Notes under the pieces: generated by a model
The model's database searches: none
Told to the model about the DNA's origin: nothing
The model's input: only the letters and a program-made list of their open reading frames with translations
Made by a program: the position numbers and the translations under genes
Part shown: positions 2,902-10,109 of the stretch, piece by piece
How positions within the stretch are numbered: the first letter of the stretch is position 1
Layout of the letters: each line of letters opens with the position of its first letter
Virus record (IMG/VR): IMGVR_UViG_3300008450_000477
Coordinates: 1-23,376 of that record
Source of the DNA: a virus
Length of the DNA stretch: 23,376 nucleotides
Reading direction: 5' to 3' (one strand)

Positions 2902-5175
2902 TTATGCACCCATTAACAAGAATGGACTAATTGTTTCTGTGGATGCACTGCTAGTTGTACCGTTTGAAATTGTTGGTGAAGTTATATCTACCCAATTATT
3001 GCTTGTGCCATCATTTATATATTCATAAAGAATATCTGTTGTAGTTAAATACCAATGGTCTCCAGGTTTTGGTGATGATGGCGCAGTAGACGATGCTGTA
3101 TATATTGTAACTGTATTTGCTTTTGTAAATGATGCATTGGCTGTTGTAAAGGCACCATTAGCAAAGCTAGCTGCCGAATTAGCCTGTAAGAAAGATGCGT
3201 TAGCTGTATCTCTGGCATAAGTGTCAGCACCGCCACTTGTGTTTGCTGCTAAGTAAGCTGCATTAGCGTGAGCATATGCCGAATTGGCAAAACCAGCCGT
3301 AGTGTTTTGTGATGCATAGGATGCATTAGCAGTTATAAAAGCACTGTTAGCAAAGCTAGCTGCTGAGTTGGCTTTATCAAAGGCTGCATTGGCAAATGTT
3401 GCACCAGAATTGGCAGTAGTAAAAGCACCATTAGCAAATGATGAACCAGAATTTGCTACGCCATATGATGCATTAGCTCTATCGAAAGCACCATTGGCAA
3501 AACTTGAATTAGAGTTTGCAGTTACAAAAGCTCCGTTGGCAAATGAACCAGCTGAATTAGCAGTGTCATAAGCATTATTAGCTTGTGTTCTTACCCATGG
3601 ATCTGTGGCAGTATTAGCTGCAGCAAAAGCCGCATTGGCTCTATCAAATGCTGAGTTTGAGTTGTCTGTAACTACTGGTACGTTACTCAACATTTCACGA
3701 ACTTGTATTACCGACCCACTACTTGGTGCCGTTGTGAAAGTTAATGTTGTACCACTTACACTATAATCAACTATTGGATTTTGTGTAATACCATTATCAA
3801 AAACAAGAATGCTATTTGATGTGGTGTTTGCTGTTACTGTAAATGTGGTGGTACTACCATCACCAGCAAATGTTCTTGTTAAATAATATAATGATGCAGT
3901 GTTACTACTGGTGATAATTGCATTGTATGCCAAATTGGCTTGAGAGAAAGCACCATTTGCAAATGAACCAGCCGAATTAGCAGTGTCATATGCATTGTTA
4001 GCCTGAGTTCTTACCCATGAATCAATAGAACCTGTGTTTGCAGCACTGTACGCAGCATTTGCACGGTCAAAAGCACCATTAGCGAACGATGCACCAGAAT
4101 TGGCAGTTACAAAAGCACCATTAGCAAATCCTGCTGTTGTATTTTGTGAATTGTAAGATGCGTTGGCCGTTATAAAAGCACCGTTAGCAAAACTAGCTGA
4201 TGAGTTAGCTGTTACAAATGCTGCATTGGCAAATATTGCAGCTGAGTTGGCTGTTGTGAATGATCCGTTGGCGAAACTGGCTGCCGAGTTGGCTGCTACG
4301 AAAGCACCATTAGCAAATGATGCACCAGAATTGGCAGCTGCATATGCATTGTTTATATAAGGCAATACATCTATATTTTTTATCAATATAGTTGTTGATT
4401 TTACATTTGCATTTAGAGTGGCAAGTTTGAATGATGCATCCGCAATGTTGATGTTGTTGTTTGAACCAACTTCTGGAGTATATTCTTCAAACAGTTGCCA
4501 TTCTTTGGTGCCCGAATCTCTTATCAATCCAGTATGTGCGTTGATACCATTATTATAGTGTGCCGCAAAACCAATATCTAAAATGTCACCAGAATAGTTG
4601 CCTGTGCCTAGAATTATTAGGGTATCGTTAGCAACAATTTGAGTTGCACTGGTACTAAATGTATTACCTAATACACTTAGGTTACCGGTAATAGAAACAT
4701 CACCAGAAATTGTACCACCAGATGTATTAAATTTTAAGTTTGCTGTGGTAAATGCACCATTAGCAAAACTGGCTGCCGAATTGGCAACATCGAATGCTGC
4801 CTGCGCCAACACATTTGCAGAATTGGCCTTGGTGAAAGCACCATTAGCAAAAGATGCACCAGAGTTGGCTGTTACAAAAGCTCCGTTAGCAAATGAACCA
4901 GCTGAATTAGCAGTATCATAAGCATTGTTAGCCTGATTTCTCACCCATGAATCTGTGGCAGTATTAGCTGCATTGTATGCAGCGTTAGCTCTATCAAAGG
5001 CACCATTAGCAAAAGAACCCGAACTAACGGCTTTACCATCAGCCGTATTAGCTGCATCAAAAGCTCCGTTAGCAAATGAACCAGCTGAATTAGCAGTTAC
5101 AAATGCACCATTGGCAAATGAACTGGCTAACCTTACATCCTTACTTCCTTGATTGCCAATGTAATTAAATTGCAT
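2902..5175 (-). CDS. Large FANGAF-repeat tail fibre (757 residues)
   Basis: The sequence is dominated by a 14-residue repeat (SFANGAFVTANSAA and variants, roughly 20 copies) interrupted by three compact modules. Residues about 146-271 are the GFAAHYNNG/HTGLIRD module, about 85-90% identical by eye to that of the fibre at the left edge. Residues about 431-494 are a beta-sandwich with FAGDGSTTTF, DNGITQNP and DYSVSGTTLTF, also seen in the 1529-residue fibre. The last 65 residues hold a small domain with PKPGDHWYLTTTD and NNWVDI, a common end in marine phage fibres. The two-heptad repeat with F/A at core positions suggests a helical, probably trimeric shaft. The ATG lies one base after the stop of the 108-residue gene (EIT, stop, T, ATG) without a Shine-Dalgarno site. 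It is probably a receptor-binding or side fibre of the virion. Confidence 0.88.
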   Translation of the reverse strand: MQFNYIGNQGSKDVRLASSFANGAFVTANSAGSFANGAFDAANTADGKAVSSGSFANGAFDRANAAYNAANTATDSWVRNQANNAYDTANSAGSFANGAFVTANSGASFANGAFTKANSANVLAQAAFDVANSAASFANGAFTTANLKFNTSGGTISGDVSITGNLSVLGNTFSTSATQIVANDTLIILGTGNYSGDILDIGFAAHYNNGINAHTGLIRDSGTKEWQLFEEYTPEVGSNNNINIADASFKLATLNANVKSTTILIKNIDVLPYINNAYAAANSGASFANGAFVAANSAASFANGSFTTANSAAIFANAAFVTANSSASFANGAFITANASYNSQNTTAGFANGAFVTANSGASFANGAFDRANAAYSAANTGSIDSWVRTQANNAYDTANSAGSFANGAFSQANLAYNAIITSSNTASLYYLTRTFAGDGSTTTFTVTANTTSNSILVFDNGITQNPIVDYSVSGTTLTFTTAPSSGSVIQVREMLSNVPVVTDNSNSAFDRANAAFAAANTATDPWVRTQANNAYDTANSAGSFANGAFVTANSNSSFANGAFDRANASYGVANSGSSFANGAFTTANSGATFANAAFDKANSAASFANSAFITANASYASQNTTAGFANSAYAHANAAYLAANTSGGADTYARDTANASFLQANSAASFANGAFTTANASFTKANTVTIYTASSTAPSSPKPGDHWYLTTTDILYEYINDGTSNNWVDITSPTISNGTTSSASTETISPFLLMGA

Positions 5176-5532: not shown

Positions 5533-6153
5533 TCAACTAAATGCGATAGTGAAAGCAACAATGTCGGCATTTACATCAAGTGCGGTCGTGCCTGTGTTGG
5601 CCTTATCAAAGGCAGCATTGGCATGAATGAAAGCTGCATTAGCAAACACCGCTGTGATGTTTTGTGATGCATATGCCGAATTGGCCTTTAGGAAAGCACC
5701 ATTAGCAAAAGAACCAGAAGAATTGGCTGTATCATATGCATTATTGGCTTGTGTTCTGACCCAAGGATCACCACCAGTATTTGCTGTATTATATGCCGCA
5801 TTGGCATGACTAAATGCCGCATTAGCTCTATCAAATGCAGGTCCAGGATCACTGCCGCCAGCAACTGATGCATTGATTGTGATTGTTTTTGTGGTTGTAT
5901 TTGTACTGATGGTTATATTATTACCAGCAATAAAAGACAGTGTGTCCGAACCACTTGTGGCCAATATTAAAGAACTATTGGCATTGATTGTATCGAAAGA
6001 GAATTGGTTGGAAATGTATGATGTTCCACCAAGACTGTTTTTGTAATACAGCTTACCATCGGCAAAGTTAAGCGCCAACTCACCATTGGCTAGGCCTGTT
6101 GGTGTGTTTCCTGTGACGCCTGATTTTTTTAATCGTATTGCTGTATTTGACAT
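5533..6153 (-). CDS. Short FANGAF fibre-like protein (206 residues)
   Basis: The N-terminus, MSNTAIRLKKSGVTGNTP followed by LANGELALNFADGKLYYKN, is the docking module that opens many marine phage fibres. Similar RS/KS..G.P..L..GE(L/I)A modules open the 642- and 70-residue proteins here. Residues about 50-97 are beta-rich (FIAGNNITIST, TKTITINA). Residues about 105-195 are the FANGAF-type alanine-rich repeat, with DPWVRTQANNAYDTANS in the middle. The C-terminus is short (LDVNADIVAFTIAFS) and has no recognisable tip domain, so it may be an adaptor or short side fibre. Its ATG is 4 bases after the upstream stop, and no Shine-Dalgarno sequence is evident. A late promoter box follows the gene. Confidence 0.8.
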   Translation of the reverse strand: MSNTAIRLKKSGVTGNTPTGLANGELALNFADGKLYYKNSLGGTSYISNQFSFDTINANSSLILATSGSDTLSFIAGNNITISTNTTTKTITINASVAGGSDPGPAFDRANAAFSHANAAYNTANTGGDPWVRTQANNAYDTANSSGSFANGAFLKANSAYASQNITAVFANAAFIHANAAFDKANTGTTALDVNADIVAFTIAFS

Positions 6154-6157
6154 TTAC

Positions 6158-6883
6158 TTAGAACGTTCCGCCATCCTTGATTGGGCCATCAATACCACTT
6201 AAACCTGGTAGGGTTGTTGTTGGTATCACTTCTTTATTTAGCTCATCAATTTTTTTTCTTTTGGCAGGAGGTAGTTGTAAGTAATCAATCTTAGCAATTA
6301 ATTCATCTATCTTGTTGTTGTATTCACTCTTTTCAGTTTCGTGTTTTTGAATCAATTCTTTAACTGTTCTATCATTTTGTTCAATTAAAGCATTAATTTT
6401 TCCAGTATTTTCAGATGTAAGAGAATTGATTTTATTCTCAAGTTCTGAACGAACCTGATTAACCTCTTCTCTTGCTCTAATCAATTCACCTTTAAATGTT
6501 TCCACATGACCAGCTTGATTCTTAACACTATCATAATCACGAAACTTACTTGTCAATACATCAATTTCGGCACGATGTTTGTTACTTAATTCATTAACAT
6601 CGTTATTTAATTTTGTTATAAGTTTTTCACTTTCTAACAATGTATTTTTCAGTTCTAGAACAGCTGTACTTTCATTTGATGCATTGGTATCTTTTAGTTC
6701 CACAATCATAGATTGTAGTTCACTATTCATCAACTTTAAATTATCAATTTTCTCAGTCTGTTCTTTAACAACCTCATCAGTTATTTTTGCATTTGCTTGC
6801 ATTGAGATATTTCGAACCACACAATCTGTTAATGTGCTTGTCATTGTCTCAATATAATAATTTAAATACTTCTCATTTGCCAT
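6158..6883 (-). CDS. Coiled-coil protein with C-terminal DGGTF motif
   Basis: This 241-residue protein starts MANEKYLNYYIETMTSTLTD. Residues about 40-205 are rich in E, K, L, N and Q with heptad-like spacing, strongly suggesting a long coiled coil. The end carries LQLPPAKRKKID, a proline/threonine stretch (VIPTTTLPGLSGIDGP) and a terminal KDGGTF. I recognise the KYLNYYIE..T.TLTD opening from proteins of T4-like marine phages. Their role is not established to my knowledge; a fibre chaperone, linker or virion rod are all possible. The terminal DGGTF is shared with the two genes transcribed ahead of it, which suggests a common interaction. Translation is supported by ATAGGAG 7 bases before the ATG. 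No NATAAATA box was found in its leader. Confidence 0.8.
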   Translation of the reverse strand: MANEKYLNYYIETMTSTLTDCVVRNISMQANAKITDEVVKEQTEKIDNLKLMNSELQSMIVELKDTNASNESTAVLELKNTLLESEKLITKLNNDVNELSNKHRAEIDVLTSKFRDYDSVKNQAGHVETFKGELIRAREEVNQVRSELENKINSLTSENTGKINALIEQNDRTVKELIQKHETEKSEYNNKIDELIAKIDYLQLPPAKRKKIDELNKEVIPTTTLPGLSGIDGPIKDGGTF

Positions 6884-6930: not shown

Positions 6931-8859
6931 TTAGAATTGTCCTCCATCTATTGTGGATGACCAAACTGGTACACCTGCATCTGTTGTTGTAAGAATCTGA
7001 TTAGACCATGTTTGATCTGATGTGCCTGCAGCAGCGGTAACTGCTAGTGCATTTGTGCCATCACCGTAAACGATACCTTTTGAAGTGAATGTGGCTGCAC
7101 CAGTACCACCTTGTGCAACAGTCAGACCTGCAATATCAGCCGCAGTTGCAGCACTTACACGGCCGTATGCATCAACAGTCAACGATGTAATTGTCTTGGC
7201 TGCACCTAATGTACCAGTCAATGTGTATGTTACGTTAGCAAGTGTAGAAATTGCACCTGTTCCGTTACCAATTAACAAACCACCTGCACTTAATGTTGAT
7301 GCACCGGTACCGCCTTGTGTAACAGTTAGACCAGCAATATCTTCAGCTGTTGCTGCTGATACACGACCATAAGCATCTACTGTTAGTGAAGTGATTGCTT
7401 TAGCAGCACCTAATGTACCAGTTAATGTGTAGTTAACGTTTGCAAGTTCATCCAAACCACCTGTGCCATTACCAATAACAATTTTACCTGTGGTGAAGGT
7501 AGATTTACCGGTACCACCTTGACCAACTGTTAGACCAGAAATTTGATTGAATGTGGCCGCAGTGAATCTACCATATGAATCTACTGTTACAGATGTAATG
7601 GTATTGTTTTGTGTGCCTGATGTTGGTCCGCTTTGTGTTGCAACAAATGTTGTATTAGAAAGTTCTTTTAATGAGTTTGTGCCATCACCAACAAGAATAG
7701 AACCAGCAGTGAATGTACTTGCACCAGTACCACCGTTAGGTACTGTTAAGTCATCAGTTAGTGTTAATGATTTAATTTGTGCGGTGCCGGCAACAAATAG
7801 AGTTCCAACGTTTGCTTGAGTTGTATTAGCATATGCTGCAATTAAGTTGGACTTCAAGTTTGCTTGACGGAAGCTTGCATCTGCAACGTTAATAACGTTA
7901 CCTGTTGGTTCTATGTTATAGTTGTCAAACAAATAGAAGAAACCATCACCAGCATTACGCACCAAACCTGCATGACGGTCTGCACCATTGTTGTAGTGGC
8001 CGTAGAAACCAATATCAACTGCATCAGATGTGTTGTTTTTACCAAGTGCAATCAATGAGTCTTCAACACTAAGCGTTTCAACGTTGTATACTGTAGAGTT
8101 ACCTAAAATGGATACGTTACCACTGATGATAAGGTCACCATCAATGGTTTGTCTCATACTTGGTGTATTTGCACGAATGACTGTAGTGTCAACATCAATA
8201 GTTACTTGATTGTTTGTTACAGTTGATGTAAGGCCTGCACCACCAGCAATTGTAAGTGTGTCGGTTGCTAGATTAACAACATCGTTTGTACCAGAATCAG
8301 CTGCAACAGTCAATGCAGTTGAAATTGTTGACGAATTGGCAATGACCATAACACGGCCATTTGCAGCTACTTGAATTATAGGTATAACTGTTGTTCCACC
8401 ATAAGTACCAGCAGTTAGACCAGCAACAGTGTTAAGTGTAGCACTCAATGTTGCATTTGCAGTACCATCATACAATTGTGCAGCAGCAGTAATATCACCA
8501 CCAGTAATATCAATAAATCTGTCGGTTTCAAATTGCGTTGCAGAGTTTGCATTACCCGAGAAATAAGTGGTACTTAATGAACCGCCGTCAGAGAAACTAA
8601 GACTTCTAACGTTTGCGTGGCCAACAGCAATGTTACCAGATGCACTACGTTGAACAAGTGTGCCTCCAGTATTTGAACTGGTTGCACTATCTATAGTTGA
8701 GGTGTAATATTGCCCACCAATATTAAGAACACCTGTACCAGCAGGTGATCCAATAAACATGGTATTTGATGCATATGAGTATGCTATCTCACCAGCTACC
8801 AGGCTGCCCGGCATGCCTGTGGTAAGGGAACGTCTAATTCTTAGTGCTGTATTTGCCAT
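6931..8859 (-). CDS. Beta-repeat tail fibre with IGF/HYNNG module (642 residues)
   Basis: Residues about 1-45 are a docking module (MANTALRIRRSLTTGMPG, GEIAYSYASNTMFIG). Residues about 50-235 are beta-rich, with T4-fibre-like TAGTYGGTT and DSGTNDVVNLATDTLTIAGG segments. Residues about 240-337 hold the module with IGFYGHYNNGADRHAGLVRNAG, a divergent relative of that in the two FANGAF fibres. Residues about 372-624 consist of a 68-residue repeat, each unit with QGGTGASTF, an ANV.YTLTGTLG segment and SLTVDAYGRVSAAT. The end is VPVWSSTIDGGQF. AAGGATAATAAT precedes the ATG, and a late box AATAAATA lies 43 bases upstream. It is most likely a virion fibre; the receptor is unknown. Confidence 0.87.
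   Translation of the reverse strand: MANTALRIRRSLTTGMPGSLVAGEIAYSYASNTMFIGSPAGTGVLNIGGQYYTSTIDSATSSNTGGTLVQRSASGNIAVGHANVRSLSFSDGGSLSTTYFSGNANSATQFETDRFIDITGGDITAAAQLYDGTANATLSATLNTVAGLTAGTYGGTTVIPIIQVAANGRVMVIANSSTISTALTVAADSGTNDVVNLATDTLTIAGGAGLTSTVTNNQVTIDVDTTVIRANTPSMRQTIDGDLIISGNVSILGNSTVYNVETLSVEDSLIALGKNNTSDAVDIGFYGHYNNGADRHAGLVRNAGDGFFYLFDNYNIEPTGNVINVADASFRQANLKSNLIAAYANTTQANVGTLFVAGTAQIKSLTLTDDLTVPNGGTGASTFTAGSILVGDGTNSLKELSNTTFVATQSGPTSGTQNNTITSVTVDSYGRFTAATFNQISGLTVGQGGTGKSTFTTGKIVIGNGTGGLDELANVNYTLTGTLGAAKAITSLTVDAYGRVSAATAEDIAGLTVTQGGTGASTLSAGGLLIGNGTGAISTLANVTYTLTGTLGAAKTITSLTVDAYGRVSAATAADIAGLTVAQGGTGAATFTSKGIVYGDGTNALAVTAAAGTSDQTWSNQILTTTDAGVPVWSSTIDGGQF
6990..7745 (-). repeat. 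204-bp in-frame tandem repeat inside the 642-residue fibre
   Basis: The GGTG-containing stretch recurs near 7099, 7303, 7507 and 7723, spacings of about 204, 204 and 216 bases. Each unit encodes about 68 residues ending in VDAYGRVSAATA.DIAGL. The two middle units are the most alike, indicating fairly recent duplication or ongoing gene conversion. Confidence 0.8.
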
Positions 8860-8901: not shown

Positions 8902-8909
8902 TATTTATT
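8902..8909 (-). promoter_or_regulatory. T4-type late promoter box AATAAATA
   Basis: The minus-strand sequence AATAAATA matches the NATAAATA late consensus. Its first two bases overlap the TAA stop of the 70-residue gene. It lies 43 bases ahead of the ATG of the 642-residue fibre, with an AAGGA ribosome site between. The placement in the only leader of this size ahead of a fibre supports function; activity is inferred. Confidence 0.6.
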
Positions 8910-9120
8910 AAAACGTGCCACCGTCAAAAGTGGTACTTTCTATAACTGTACTAAAAACATTTGCCACATAATTTCCACCAGCTATTGGTATTACATGATT
9001 TGTGGTATTTCCAATAAAAAGTGTGTTGGAAAGAAAAGAATATGCAAGTTCCCCGTCTGCTAATGATGAAGGTGCTGTGTTCGCATATGAACGGAGAATT
9101 TGTATTGATGTATTTGCCAT
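8908..9120 (-). CDS. Mini-fibre protein: docking domain plus DGGTF end (70 residues)
   Basis: This 70-residue protein (MANTSIQILRSYANTAPSSL, then GELAYSFLSNTLFIGN) is clearly related to the first ~45 residues of the 642-residue fibre encoded next. Shared features are the R(S) position, P.SL..GE(L/I)AYS and SNT(L/M)FIG. It then ends almost at once with ESTTFDGGTF, close to the STIDGGQF end of the same neighbour. It thus looks like a fibre with the entire shaft missing, not a truncated pseudogene, since both ends are intact. The ATG directly abuts the previous stop (TAAATG) with no Shine-Dalgarno, implying coupled translation. Possible roles are a cap or spacer for the docking site, or a fibre-length variant; none is proven. 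Confidence 0.75.
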   Translation of the reverse strand: MANTSIQILRSYANTAPSSLADGELAYSFLSNTLFIGNTTNHVIPIAGGNYVANVFSTVIESTTFDGGTF

Positions 9121-9654
9121 TTAAAAGAAACCGGAATCAGCACCCTGGAAAGCCAAATACGTTACTGAGTTTGCTATTGCGGCCTGAATTGCTTGTTCTG
9201 GAATTACACCAGCAACAGTCTGAACAGGTACAAAACCACCAATCGGAGATACAACAATAGCGATTGGATCAGGATTTTCATCGGTTGGACGTGCTGCAAA
9301 AGATATTGAACCAGAGGTTTCATCAGCTTTGATAACTGTGCCATCCAAGTCAATTGTGTTACCACTTAGAAATAGACTTCGGAATTTTTGTGTTCTACTA
9401 CCTAGGTCAAATGCTCTTGAAGTTGTTGGCAGTAGATTTCCATGTACAGGAGTATCGGCACCAAGGCCTTTTGCAGAAAATGTTTTGGTTTGCGAGTTGT
9501 ATACAATCACATCACCCGTGTTTGCACCAACTAAACTAAGGTCAGTTAAACTCCTAAGTGTTTTGGTACCATAGGATAACGTCTGCACTTTAGTTTTCTG
9601 GCCTTCAACTCTAACTTTTATGGTTGCTGGTTGTGTAACAGTTACGGTCGCCAT
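9121..9654 (-). CDS. Fibre-like virion protein (177 residues)
   Basis: The N-terminal half has VTVTQPATIKVRVEG, LTDLSLVGANTGDVIVYN and TKTFSAKGL, the GD(V/L)(I/L)VYN...F pattern of marine phage fibre proteins. The second half begins GNLLPTTSRAFDLGSRTQKF, then RSLFLSGNTIDLDGTVIK, a motif common in phage fibres before a beta-helical or intramolecular domain. After RPTDENPDPIAIVV the protein ends in AFQGADSGFF, loosely similar to the DGG.F ends of the next three genes. AAAGGAATAAA stands before the ATG and overlaps the upstream stop. It is probably an adaptor or short fibre of the tail; I cannot assign a T4 gene number. Confidence 0.75.
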   Translation of the reverse strand: MATVTVTQPATIKVRVEGQKTKVQTLSYGTKTLRSLTDLSLVGANTGDVIVYNSQTKTFSAKGLGADTPVHGNLLPTTSRAFDLGSRTQKFRSLFLSGNTIDLDGTVIKADETSGSISFAARPTDENPDPIAIVVSPIGGFVPVQTVAGVIPEQAIQAAIANSVTYLAFQGADSGFF

Positions 9655-9663
9655 TTTATTCCT

Positions 9664-10005
9664 TTAAAATACTGTAACTTGAGGTAAAACGTTCACAACT
9701 CCTTCTAAAACACGTATCACTGTGTTTGAAGAATCTTTGATAAGCACATCATATACATAACGACCAGCAGAAATGTTTGCGGTGTTTGCATAAGGTAAAG
9801 ATAAAAGTATAACACCTTCTGTTGGATCATTAACTTGTACCACAAAGTTTGCGGTTGTACTGCTAGAATAGTATGATTTTTTCATGGCAGCTTTAATTTG
9901 ACTACCAGTTAAAACAAAAGGTGAACCATCAGCCTGGTCCAAAGAAATGGATGTGCTAAAGTTTGAACCTTGTTCTAGAAATAATTCTTGGTAACCAGCT
10001 GGCAT
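9664..10005 (-). CDS. Small Ig-like fibre-connector-type protein (113 residues)
   Basis: The sequence MPAGYQELFLEQGSNFSTSI is followed by DGSPFVLTGSQIKAAMKKSYYSS and GRYVYDVLIKD, then RVLEGVVNVLPQVT. The F.LEQG..FST, (R/K)KSY.S and RYVYDV...RVLEG.V.V.P.VT pattern is one I recognise from T4-like cyanophage tail regions. The pattern resembles the N-terminal Ig-like domain of baseplate and receptor-binding proteins (BppU_N type), an inference from strand pattern only. It is the first gene after the perfect late promoter TATAAATA at 10025-10032, and AAAAGGGG lies 7 bases before the ATG. As first gene of the unit with four fibre-associated genes after it, a connector between tail and fibres is plausible. 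Confidence 0.75.
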   Translation of the reverse strand: MPAGYQELFLEQGSNFSTSISLDQADGSPFVLTGSQIKAAMKKSYYSSSTTANFVVQVNDPTEGVILLSLPYANTANISAGRYVYDVLIKDSSNTVIRVLEGVVNVLPQVTVF

Positions 10006-10109
10006 TGTTAACCCCTTTTAGAGGTATTTATACTGAAAGTAAATTCGCTTTCCGGATTCTTGGTCCTGTCGGAGAAATTTCTGGAGCCGGAACGCAAAAA
10101 TTCGAAATT
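10006..10109 (-). other. Longest intergenic spacer, 104 bases, with late promoter and imperfect inverted repeat
   Basis: No gene is called here. The segment 10041-10100 is near half G+C, richer than its surroundings. An imperfect inverted repeat pairs 10047-10055 (GCTTTCCGG) with 10087-10095 (CCGGAACGC), and an inner palindrome AGAAATTTCT lies at 10073-10082. There is no U-run, so a classical terminator is doubtful. The frame of the 122-residue gene stays open for 33 codons past its stop. Confidence 0.5.
10025..10032 (-). promoter_or_regulatory. Perfect T4 late promoter TATAAATA
   Basis: The minus-strand reading is exactly TATAAATA, the T4 late consensus. It stands 19 bases upstream of the ATG of the 113-residue gene, so transcription would start a few bases downstream with a very short leader holding AAAAGGGG. 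It is in the largest gap of the window, where a unit boundary is expected. Confidence 0.75.

Follow-up and report, generated by a model that had tools for sequence, protein, structure and literature searches.

In the window (the whole stretch of DNA analysed here, an IMG/VR record of 23,376 bases), the 70-aa gene that we call SHORT is, as judged from its sequence, a real and conserved gene for a fibre segment without a shaft, and we consider it probable that its product is a joint, or adaptor, in a fibre chain that is assembled head to tail by the insertion of plugs into sockets. Here the word socket denotes the N-terminal domain of the SHORT type and the word plug denotes the C-terminal tag. 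The features needed for the argument are as follows.

8908..9120, minus strand: SHORT, 70-aa shaftless fibre segment composed of socket, linker and plug (ORF; 54 distinct homologues in the same slot)
8977..9120, minus strand: socket, the N-terminal domain of SHORT, residues 1-48 (supported by pLDDT blocks; domain also on the 642-aa and 206-aa proteins and on T-even gp37)
8911..8925, minus strand: plug, the C-terminal DGGTF of SHORT (the 54 distinct homologues keep it as [DRQ][GA]GxF, some with one extra residue)
6931..8859, minus strand: LONG, 642-aa fibre with a socket at its N-end and the plug DGGQF (6934-6948) at its C-end (ORF; sequence match to SHORT)
9121..9654, minus strand: 177-aa small protein, probably the partner upstream of SHORT, with DSGFF (9124-9138) as a variant plug (ORF; socket fusions in L040, L041 and L221)
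9664..10005, minus strand: 113-aa protein, probably the base of the chain, from the PHROG family 'L-shaped tail fiber assembly' (PHROG matches)
6158..6883, minus strand: 241-aa coiled-coil protein with the plug KDGGTF at its end (ORF)
5533..6153, minus strand: 206-aa protein with a socket but no plug, probable tip segment (ORF; sequence match; slot very variable in length in relatives)

The two ends of SHORT and its slot

The ORF of SHORT at 8908-9120(-) has an ATG start and a TAA stop. As the first-pass annotation had claimed, both of its ends match those of LONG: in a search within the record, residues 1-68 match the 642-aa fibre at 42% with an E value of 3.6e-12, and the C-ends read IESTTFDGGTF in SHORT and WSSTIDGGQF in LONG. 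In the same kind of search, residues 1-57 match the 206-aa protein (5533-6153) at 39% with an E value of 3e-5. The reading of the tag as a fibre end was likewise borne out, with the tag being wider than had been supposed, because it also ends the 241-aa coiled-coil protein (..KDGGTF) and, in a variant form, the 177-aa protein (..DSGFF). That SHORT abuts its neighbours is true on the side of the 177-aa gene, where the stop at 9121-9123 is followed with zero gap by the ATG of SHORT from 9120, and is not true on the side of LONG, where 48 nt lie between the two genes.

The relatives come from a first IMG/VR scan that gave 44 loci, from a second scan with an alignment as the query, of which the best 80 of 206 confirmed relatives were taken, and from a third scan with a long-fibre query, which gave 77 further loci. 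Most of the 44 first-scan loci have a complete short ORF, two are truncated by the contig end, and in the remaining ones the domain is inside or at the start of longer ORFs. The 210 sequences including the window were reduced to 165 by removal of contained ones, with 2202 called ORFs. These 165 sequences contain 59 distinct socket genes that are no longer than 130 aa, of which 54 end in a plug and are counted as SHORT, and the other five (L035, L049, L183, L186 and L187), having no plug, look like tip proteins. The 54 distinct homologues are 61-89 aa long, with the N-domain and the last five residues being conserved and the linker between them being variable in length. Directly upstream is a small protein ending in a plug (52 of 54), and directly downstream is a socket-bearing gene (also 52 of 54); in L095 and L101 a single 74-aa gene separates SHORT from the downstream socket gene. 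A stand-alone gene with two fibre ends and no shaft is thus recurrent beside long fibres in relatives, which is where the first-pass annotation had suggested looking for it.

The N-domain of SHORT is under constraint, as judged from dN/dS, whose median is 0.11 in 806 usable pairs, and the codons of the tag differ at third positions with the residues kept. Because 54 distinct homologues of such lengths keep both ends and occupy one shared slot, chance, erosion and sequencing error are rejected, and the earlier claim of a clean frame stands. We also rejected the idea that the tag is solely a DNA signal, such as a ribosome-binding or recombination site, because the third positions vary and the next start usually lies 30-60 nt past SHORT.

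With AlphaFold2, SHORT together with its homologues (40 rows) gave a mean pLDDT of 79.8, with 38 residues above 90; the predicted structure is a small confident beta domain, with pLDDT blocks of 93-94 over residues 11-40, followed by a low-confidence tail. In this model of SHORT alone, which is a monomer model of proteins expected to be trimers, the plug is undocked and of low confidence. The plug is also undocked when SHORT is joined by read-through to residues 1-90 of LONG (monomer, 20 rows; mean pLDDT 57.9, pTM 0.33). The undocked plug in these monomer models counts as weak but real negative evidence against docking.

The fold matches of the socket are weak and mutually consistent. The best one by VIA-align is the N-domain of Mtd (1yu0, residues 5-49; Z 3.0, rmsd 2.7, 42 aligned), and the others are the N-ends of phage hyaluronidases and the trimerisation domain of collagen XVIII. 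Among the sequence matches to solved structures, serralysins, SUPPRESSOR OF QUENCHING 1, GAPDH and others were judged to be due to chance. The socket bears a weak resemblance, in sequence and fold, to Mtd_N (PF18454) of Bordetella phage Mtd and to the N-ends of phage hyaluronidases and CBA120 tailspikes; SHORT itself scores 12.7 bits against Mtd_N, which is below the Pfam gathering score of 26.3, and at E values up to 1 the Mtd_N match is present in 12 of 40 homologues, the best being 0.0015. Matches among predicted viral proteins include T-even distal fibre subunits, the 559-aa fibre of P-HM1 and several proteins of 62-88 aa, and short uncharacterised proteins of uncultured phages in BFVD (such as A0A6J5SMK7, 73 aa, and A0A6J7WCK8, 66 aa) are similar to SHORT in both predicted fold and length.

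Plugs, sockets and the gp36-gp37 joint

The named relatives of SHORT found by tblastn are all weak, with many T-even gp37 N-ends among them. When the socket profile was rebuilt without its T2 (T-even) row, it gave 23.5-41.6 bits on 7 of 7 gp37 N-ends in a database of these 7 sequences, and the gp36 proteins neighbouring those gp37 end in D[FY]G[TYS][YF] in all seven cases. According to the relevant passages of two reviews, a gp36 trimer binds to gp37 within the N-terminal region of the latter (PMC3004832), and gp36 uses its C-terminus to bind the gp37 N-terminus (PMC9603124). Since the socket is gp37-like, the gp36 end is plug-like and the contact between gp36 and gp37 has been reported, a joint in which a C-end enters an N-domain is the natural model, although it is unproved. 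The window resembles the T-even joint in that the gp37 N-domain is homologous to its socket and in that an aromatic C-end is carried by the upstream partner, as it is by the 177-aa gene (DSGFF); it differs in that none of the T-even proteins seen consists of socket plus plug alone.

Based on a socket profile from 20 sequences, to which some of the genes tested had contributed, and on a simple C-end pattern, which was chosen after examples had been seen, the upstream gene of a deduplicated neighbour pair has a plug in 207 of the 224 pairs whose downstream gene has a socket, as compared with 78 of the 1271 whose downstream gene has none. At loci without SHORT a plug gene is upstream in 92 of 104 pairs with a socket and in 44 of 982 pairs without, these pairs not being deduplicated. 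For the 17 of 224 socket genes having no strict plug upstream, about nine have near-plugs (DGSSF, DMGFF, DGSTF), one is an ORF miscall (L051) and the rest are true exceptions. Viewed from the plug genes whose next gene is known, the next gene is a socket gene in 203 cases; in 72 cases the plug gene is itself socket-bearing and a non-socket gene follows, nearly all of these being long fibres that precede the coiled-coil gene; and in 11 cases neither holds. Because the plug of LONG usually precedes the coiled-coil gene rather than a socket gene, not every partner can be read from adjacency, and there can be more plugs than sockets.

The plugs are present on several upstream families, including T2 gp36, that show no relationship to one another when their last 12 residues are left out; the counts of these families are rough, with the largest one having merged coil proteins with SHORT and LONG, and they replace a cluster-level plug-socket test in which single linkage gave no separate majority-socket cluster. 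The type of plug varies with the position. The base proteins before SHORT end in GFF or GYF (36 of 47, deduplicated), SHORT before LONG ends in GGxF (37 of 39 complete cases), LONG ends in DGGQF (34 of 45) and the coil proteins end in DGG[ST]F (40 of 44). A non-GG GFF plug outside SHORT occurs in two cases (L030 and L032), each preceding a SHORT-like socket. These plug types fit plugs that are specific to each joint, and shared ancestry could give the same picture.

The 12 named phage genomes that were searched whole with the socket profile contain the socket in 8, and all 8 have a plug-ending protein beside the 'L-shaped' gene. P-TIM68, P-SSM4, vB_OspM_OC and HTVC008M gave no socket at the profile threshold, and the portions of their fibre clusters that were read showed no plug. 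In S-SRM01, ACG-2014f, S-SKS1 and Sf-CH8 the socket gene is far from the plug gene, so linkage alone cannot explain the association of plug with socket. In DSL-LC03 (L221), L040 and L041 the small base protein and the socket are fused in one chain, where DGQVNP, DGKFYP or DGKTYP is present as a plug-like remnant at the point where a plug would be expected to end. The small protein of HTVC008M continues straight into a 1020-aa fibre at DDDTFP.

The cassette of the Kyanoviridae phages P-HM1, Mosig and Melnitz is alike in having a 111-113-aa protein, a 73-90-aa plug protein, a long fibre with socket and plug and a later socket-bearing fibre, but it has no stand-alone SHORT between the plug protein and the long fibre. 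The order in P-HM1 (a VrlC-like protein, a 73-aa protein, the 'L-shaped' 113-aa protein, the plug protein and the long socket fibre) is that of the window, except that the window has further fibre genes between the 73-aa and 113-aa genes. In the open-access subset of the literature, we found no paper that describes a fibre segment lacking a shaft or a code of plugs and sockets.

The fibre cassette and the origin of the short form

The 113-aa protein matches phrog_1084 (E 3e-22) and phrog_3304 (E 6.7e-18) and is, weakly, LtfC/BppU_N-like. The 177-aa base protein (9121-9654(-)) corresponds to proteins of 66-90 aa in many relatives, about 100 residues having been gained in the window's clade. The gene of the 241-aa coiled-coil plug protein (6158-6883(-)) has the long-fibre gene on one side and the tip gene on the other, and in L035, L049 and L051 the corresponding small helical gene has no plug; the protein may be a chaperone, a cap or a segment. 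The tip slot (5533-6153(-)) holds 206 aa in the window and from about 70 to more than 1200 aa in relatives, a range which suggests that it is exchanged often. A module of about 100 residues (..DIGFxxHYNNGxxxHxGLxR..) is common to three fibres, as if copied among them:

3-1229, 2902-5175 and 6931-8859, minus strand: the 409-, 757- and 642-aa fibres with the common module

In relatives, the fibre cassette is adjoined by Radical SAM and 2OG-Fe(II) oxygenase genes as identified by Pfam (L022 1108-4028; L037 889-1896(-)), one of the Radical_SAM matches being just under the Pfam cutoff. A megablast search of 50,697 phage records gave nothing close to the window, and its 2142-aa VrlC-like protein has about 28-30% identity to its counterparts in named phages, for example P-SSM4 and S-RIM2.

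In a tree of the N-ends, made from a short alignment of 62 residues, 50 of 53 SHORT cluster with one longer protein at a local support of 0.75, with 47 of them at 0.98, and the SHORT of L129, L135 and L148 are placed beside the long proteins of L138, L139 and L142, which suggests that SHORT arose at least twice. In some members of this sister clade the slot contains an 83-aa SHORT, and in the others it contains a socket protein of 848-928 aa and, after it, a plug protein of 186 aa. A longer orthologue in the slot, which had been named beforehand as evidence against the first reading and as a sign of internal deletion, is therefore present in the sister clade (L138, L139 and L142), while the SHORT genes of the window's clade are 61-89 aa. 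A SHORT-type socket is also carried, within the window's clade, by a 1295-aa protein of L030, a record of 27.8 kb that was found to contain neither a second socket nor anything matching LONG.

The flanks of the slot in L148 and L139 align at 85.6% over 409 nt and at 97.8% over 231 nt, and between them there are 12 nt in one and 3,108 nt in the other, with the ends in frame and both socket and plug kept; L135 and L142 show the same pattern with other gap ends. In the window's clade the 88-89-aa forms of SHORT keep the start of the long-fibre neck. Both these and the 83-aa forms retain a stump of the shaft. Because of these stumps shaft loss is favoured over insertion, with the direction unproved, and the sequences point more to shaft loss as the way in which the short form arose. 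Of the earlier idea that long fibres grow from a minimal form by insertion, the swap of short and long forms in one slot thus holds, and the direction does not fit so well.

Two further proteins are noted here. The 186-aa plug protein of L139 (5398-5958) and L142 (9383-9943), which starts with MAILDSAKVDLLYKKLFG, comes after a socket protein of more than 900 aa that has no plug; its L139 copy has no Pfam match. In L128 (439-834) a 131-aa socket-plus-plug protein ending in DGGTY has a length between those of SHORT and LONG.

The proposed role of SHORT and its alternatives

We propose a chain of fibre proteins, probably trimers, that are joined head to tail. In the chain, the Mtd_N/gp37-like socket of SHORT would receive the plug ..DSGFF of the 177-aa base protein, the linker after the socket would be flexible, with its variation giving flexibility, and the plug DGGTF of SHORT would enter the N-terminal socket of the 642-aa fibre. 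The order in the virion would then be the 113/177-aa base, the 70-aa joint, the 642-aa shaft and the tip segment. For SHORT we infer docking, trimerisation, presence in the virion and the role of a hinge. More tentatively, the same may be generalised to a plug-into-socket code, in which the C-terminal plugs (D[AS]GFF, DGGxF, DGGQF) would set the order of segments and the shafts would be exchangeable cargo that can shrink to nothing, so that SHORT would be the limiting case, a removable adaptor taking one plug type and presenting another, with the same code operating at the T4 gp36-gp37 joint.

Two boxes bear on when SHORT would be made.

10025..10032, minus strand: TATAAATA box upstream of 113-177-SHORT, about 20 nt before the 113-aa gene
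8902..8910, minus strand: TAATAAATA, possible late promoter of LONG, overlapping the SHORT stop

We take TATAAATA to be the core of the T4-type late promoter, and of the 53 distinct gaps that follow SHORT, 50 contain TAAATA. The genes 113-177-SHORT may accordingly form one late unit with LONG heading the next, in which case SHORT would be produced together with the base proteins.

This arrangement, in which SHORT is translated beside the 177-aa gene and may share a transcript with 113-177, would also suit a helper, and it could be argued that SHORT is a trimerisation or assembly factor, forming a small trimer on which the base (or LONG) is nucleated or by which it is capped, without being a permanent segment, as the weak matches of its domain to phage fibre N-domains and to the trimerisation domain of collagen XV/XVIII would allow. 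We regard this as unlikely, because it is not obvious why a helper should need socket and plug to be both conserved and arranged in the observed order, and because the 848-928-aa socket protein and the plug protein in the slot of the sister clade look structural.

With two binding ends and no shaft, SHORT could alternatively, as the first-pass annotation had suggested, be a decoy or copy-number regulator, filling sockets or plugs and so limiting the number of long fibres attached. Neither of these roles gained support from our sequence comparisons. Competition of this kind for a single joint would fit less well with the sockets of SHORT and LONG falling mostly in separate clades and with the plugs being different, mostly GFF or GYF on the bases before SHORT and GGxF on SHORT itself. 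Because of these separate clades and differing plugs, two successive joints suit better than competition at one joint, shared ancestry being possible too, and we give the decoy little credence; a structural segment is the more likely reading on our analysis, because the N-domain resembles an acceptor for the C-tag of the previous protein, as at gp36-gp37. That SHORT is a tolerated remnant of shaft deletion, retained since both junctions still fit, could draw on the 3.1-kb in-frame difference between L148 and L139 and on the shaft stumps, but it is very improbable given that the low dN/dS, the fixed slot and the grouping of 50 of 53 SHORT sockets in one clade speak of long-term selection.

The joint between gp36 and gp37 has long been known from assembly work, and our sequence searches of a PDB copy gave no credible match among solved structures for the socket, the gp37 N-end or gp36, so that no solved structure of either joining end was found there. 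A protein that combines the two halves of such a joint within 70 residues would offer a minimal model for it. Should the plug code prove true, the order of segments and the exchange of shafts could be readable from gene ends in a large group of aquatic T4-like phages, and many fibre genes now listed as 'hypothetical protein' could be better annotated.
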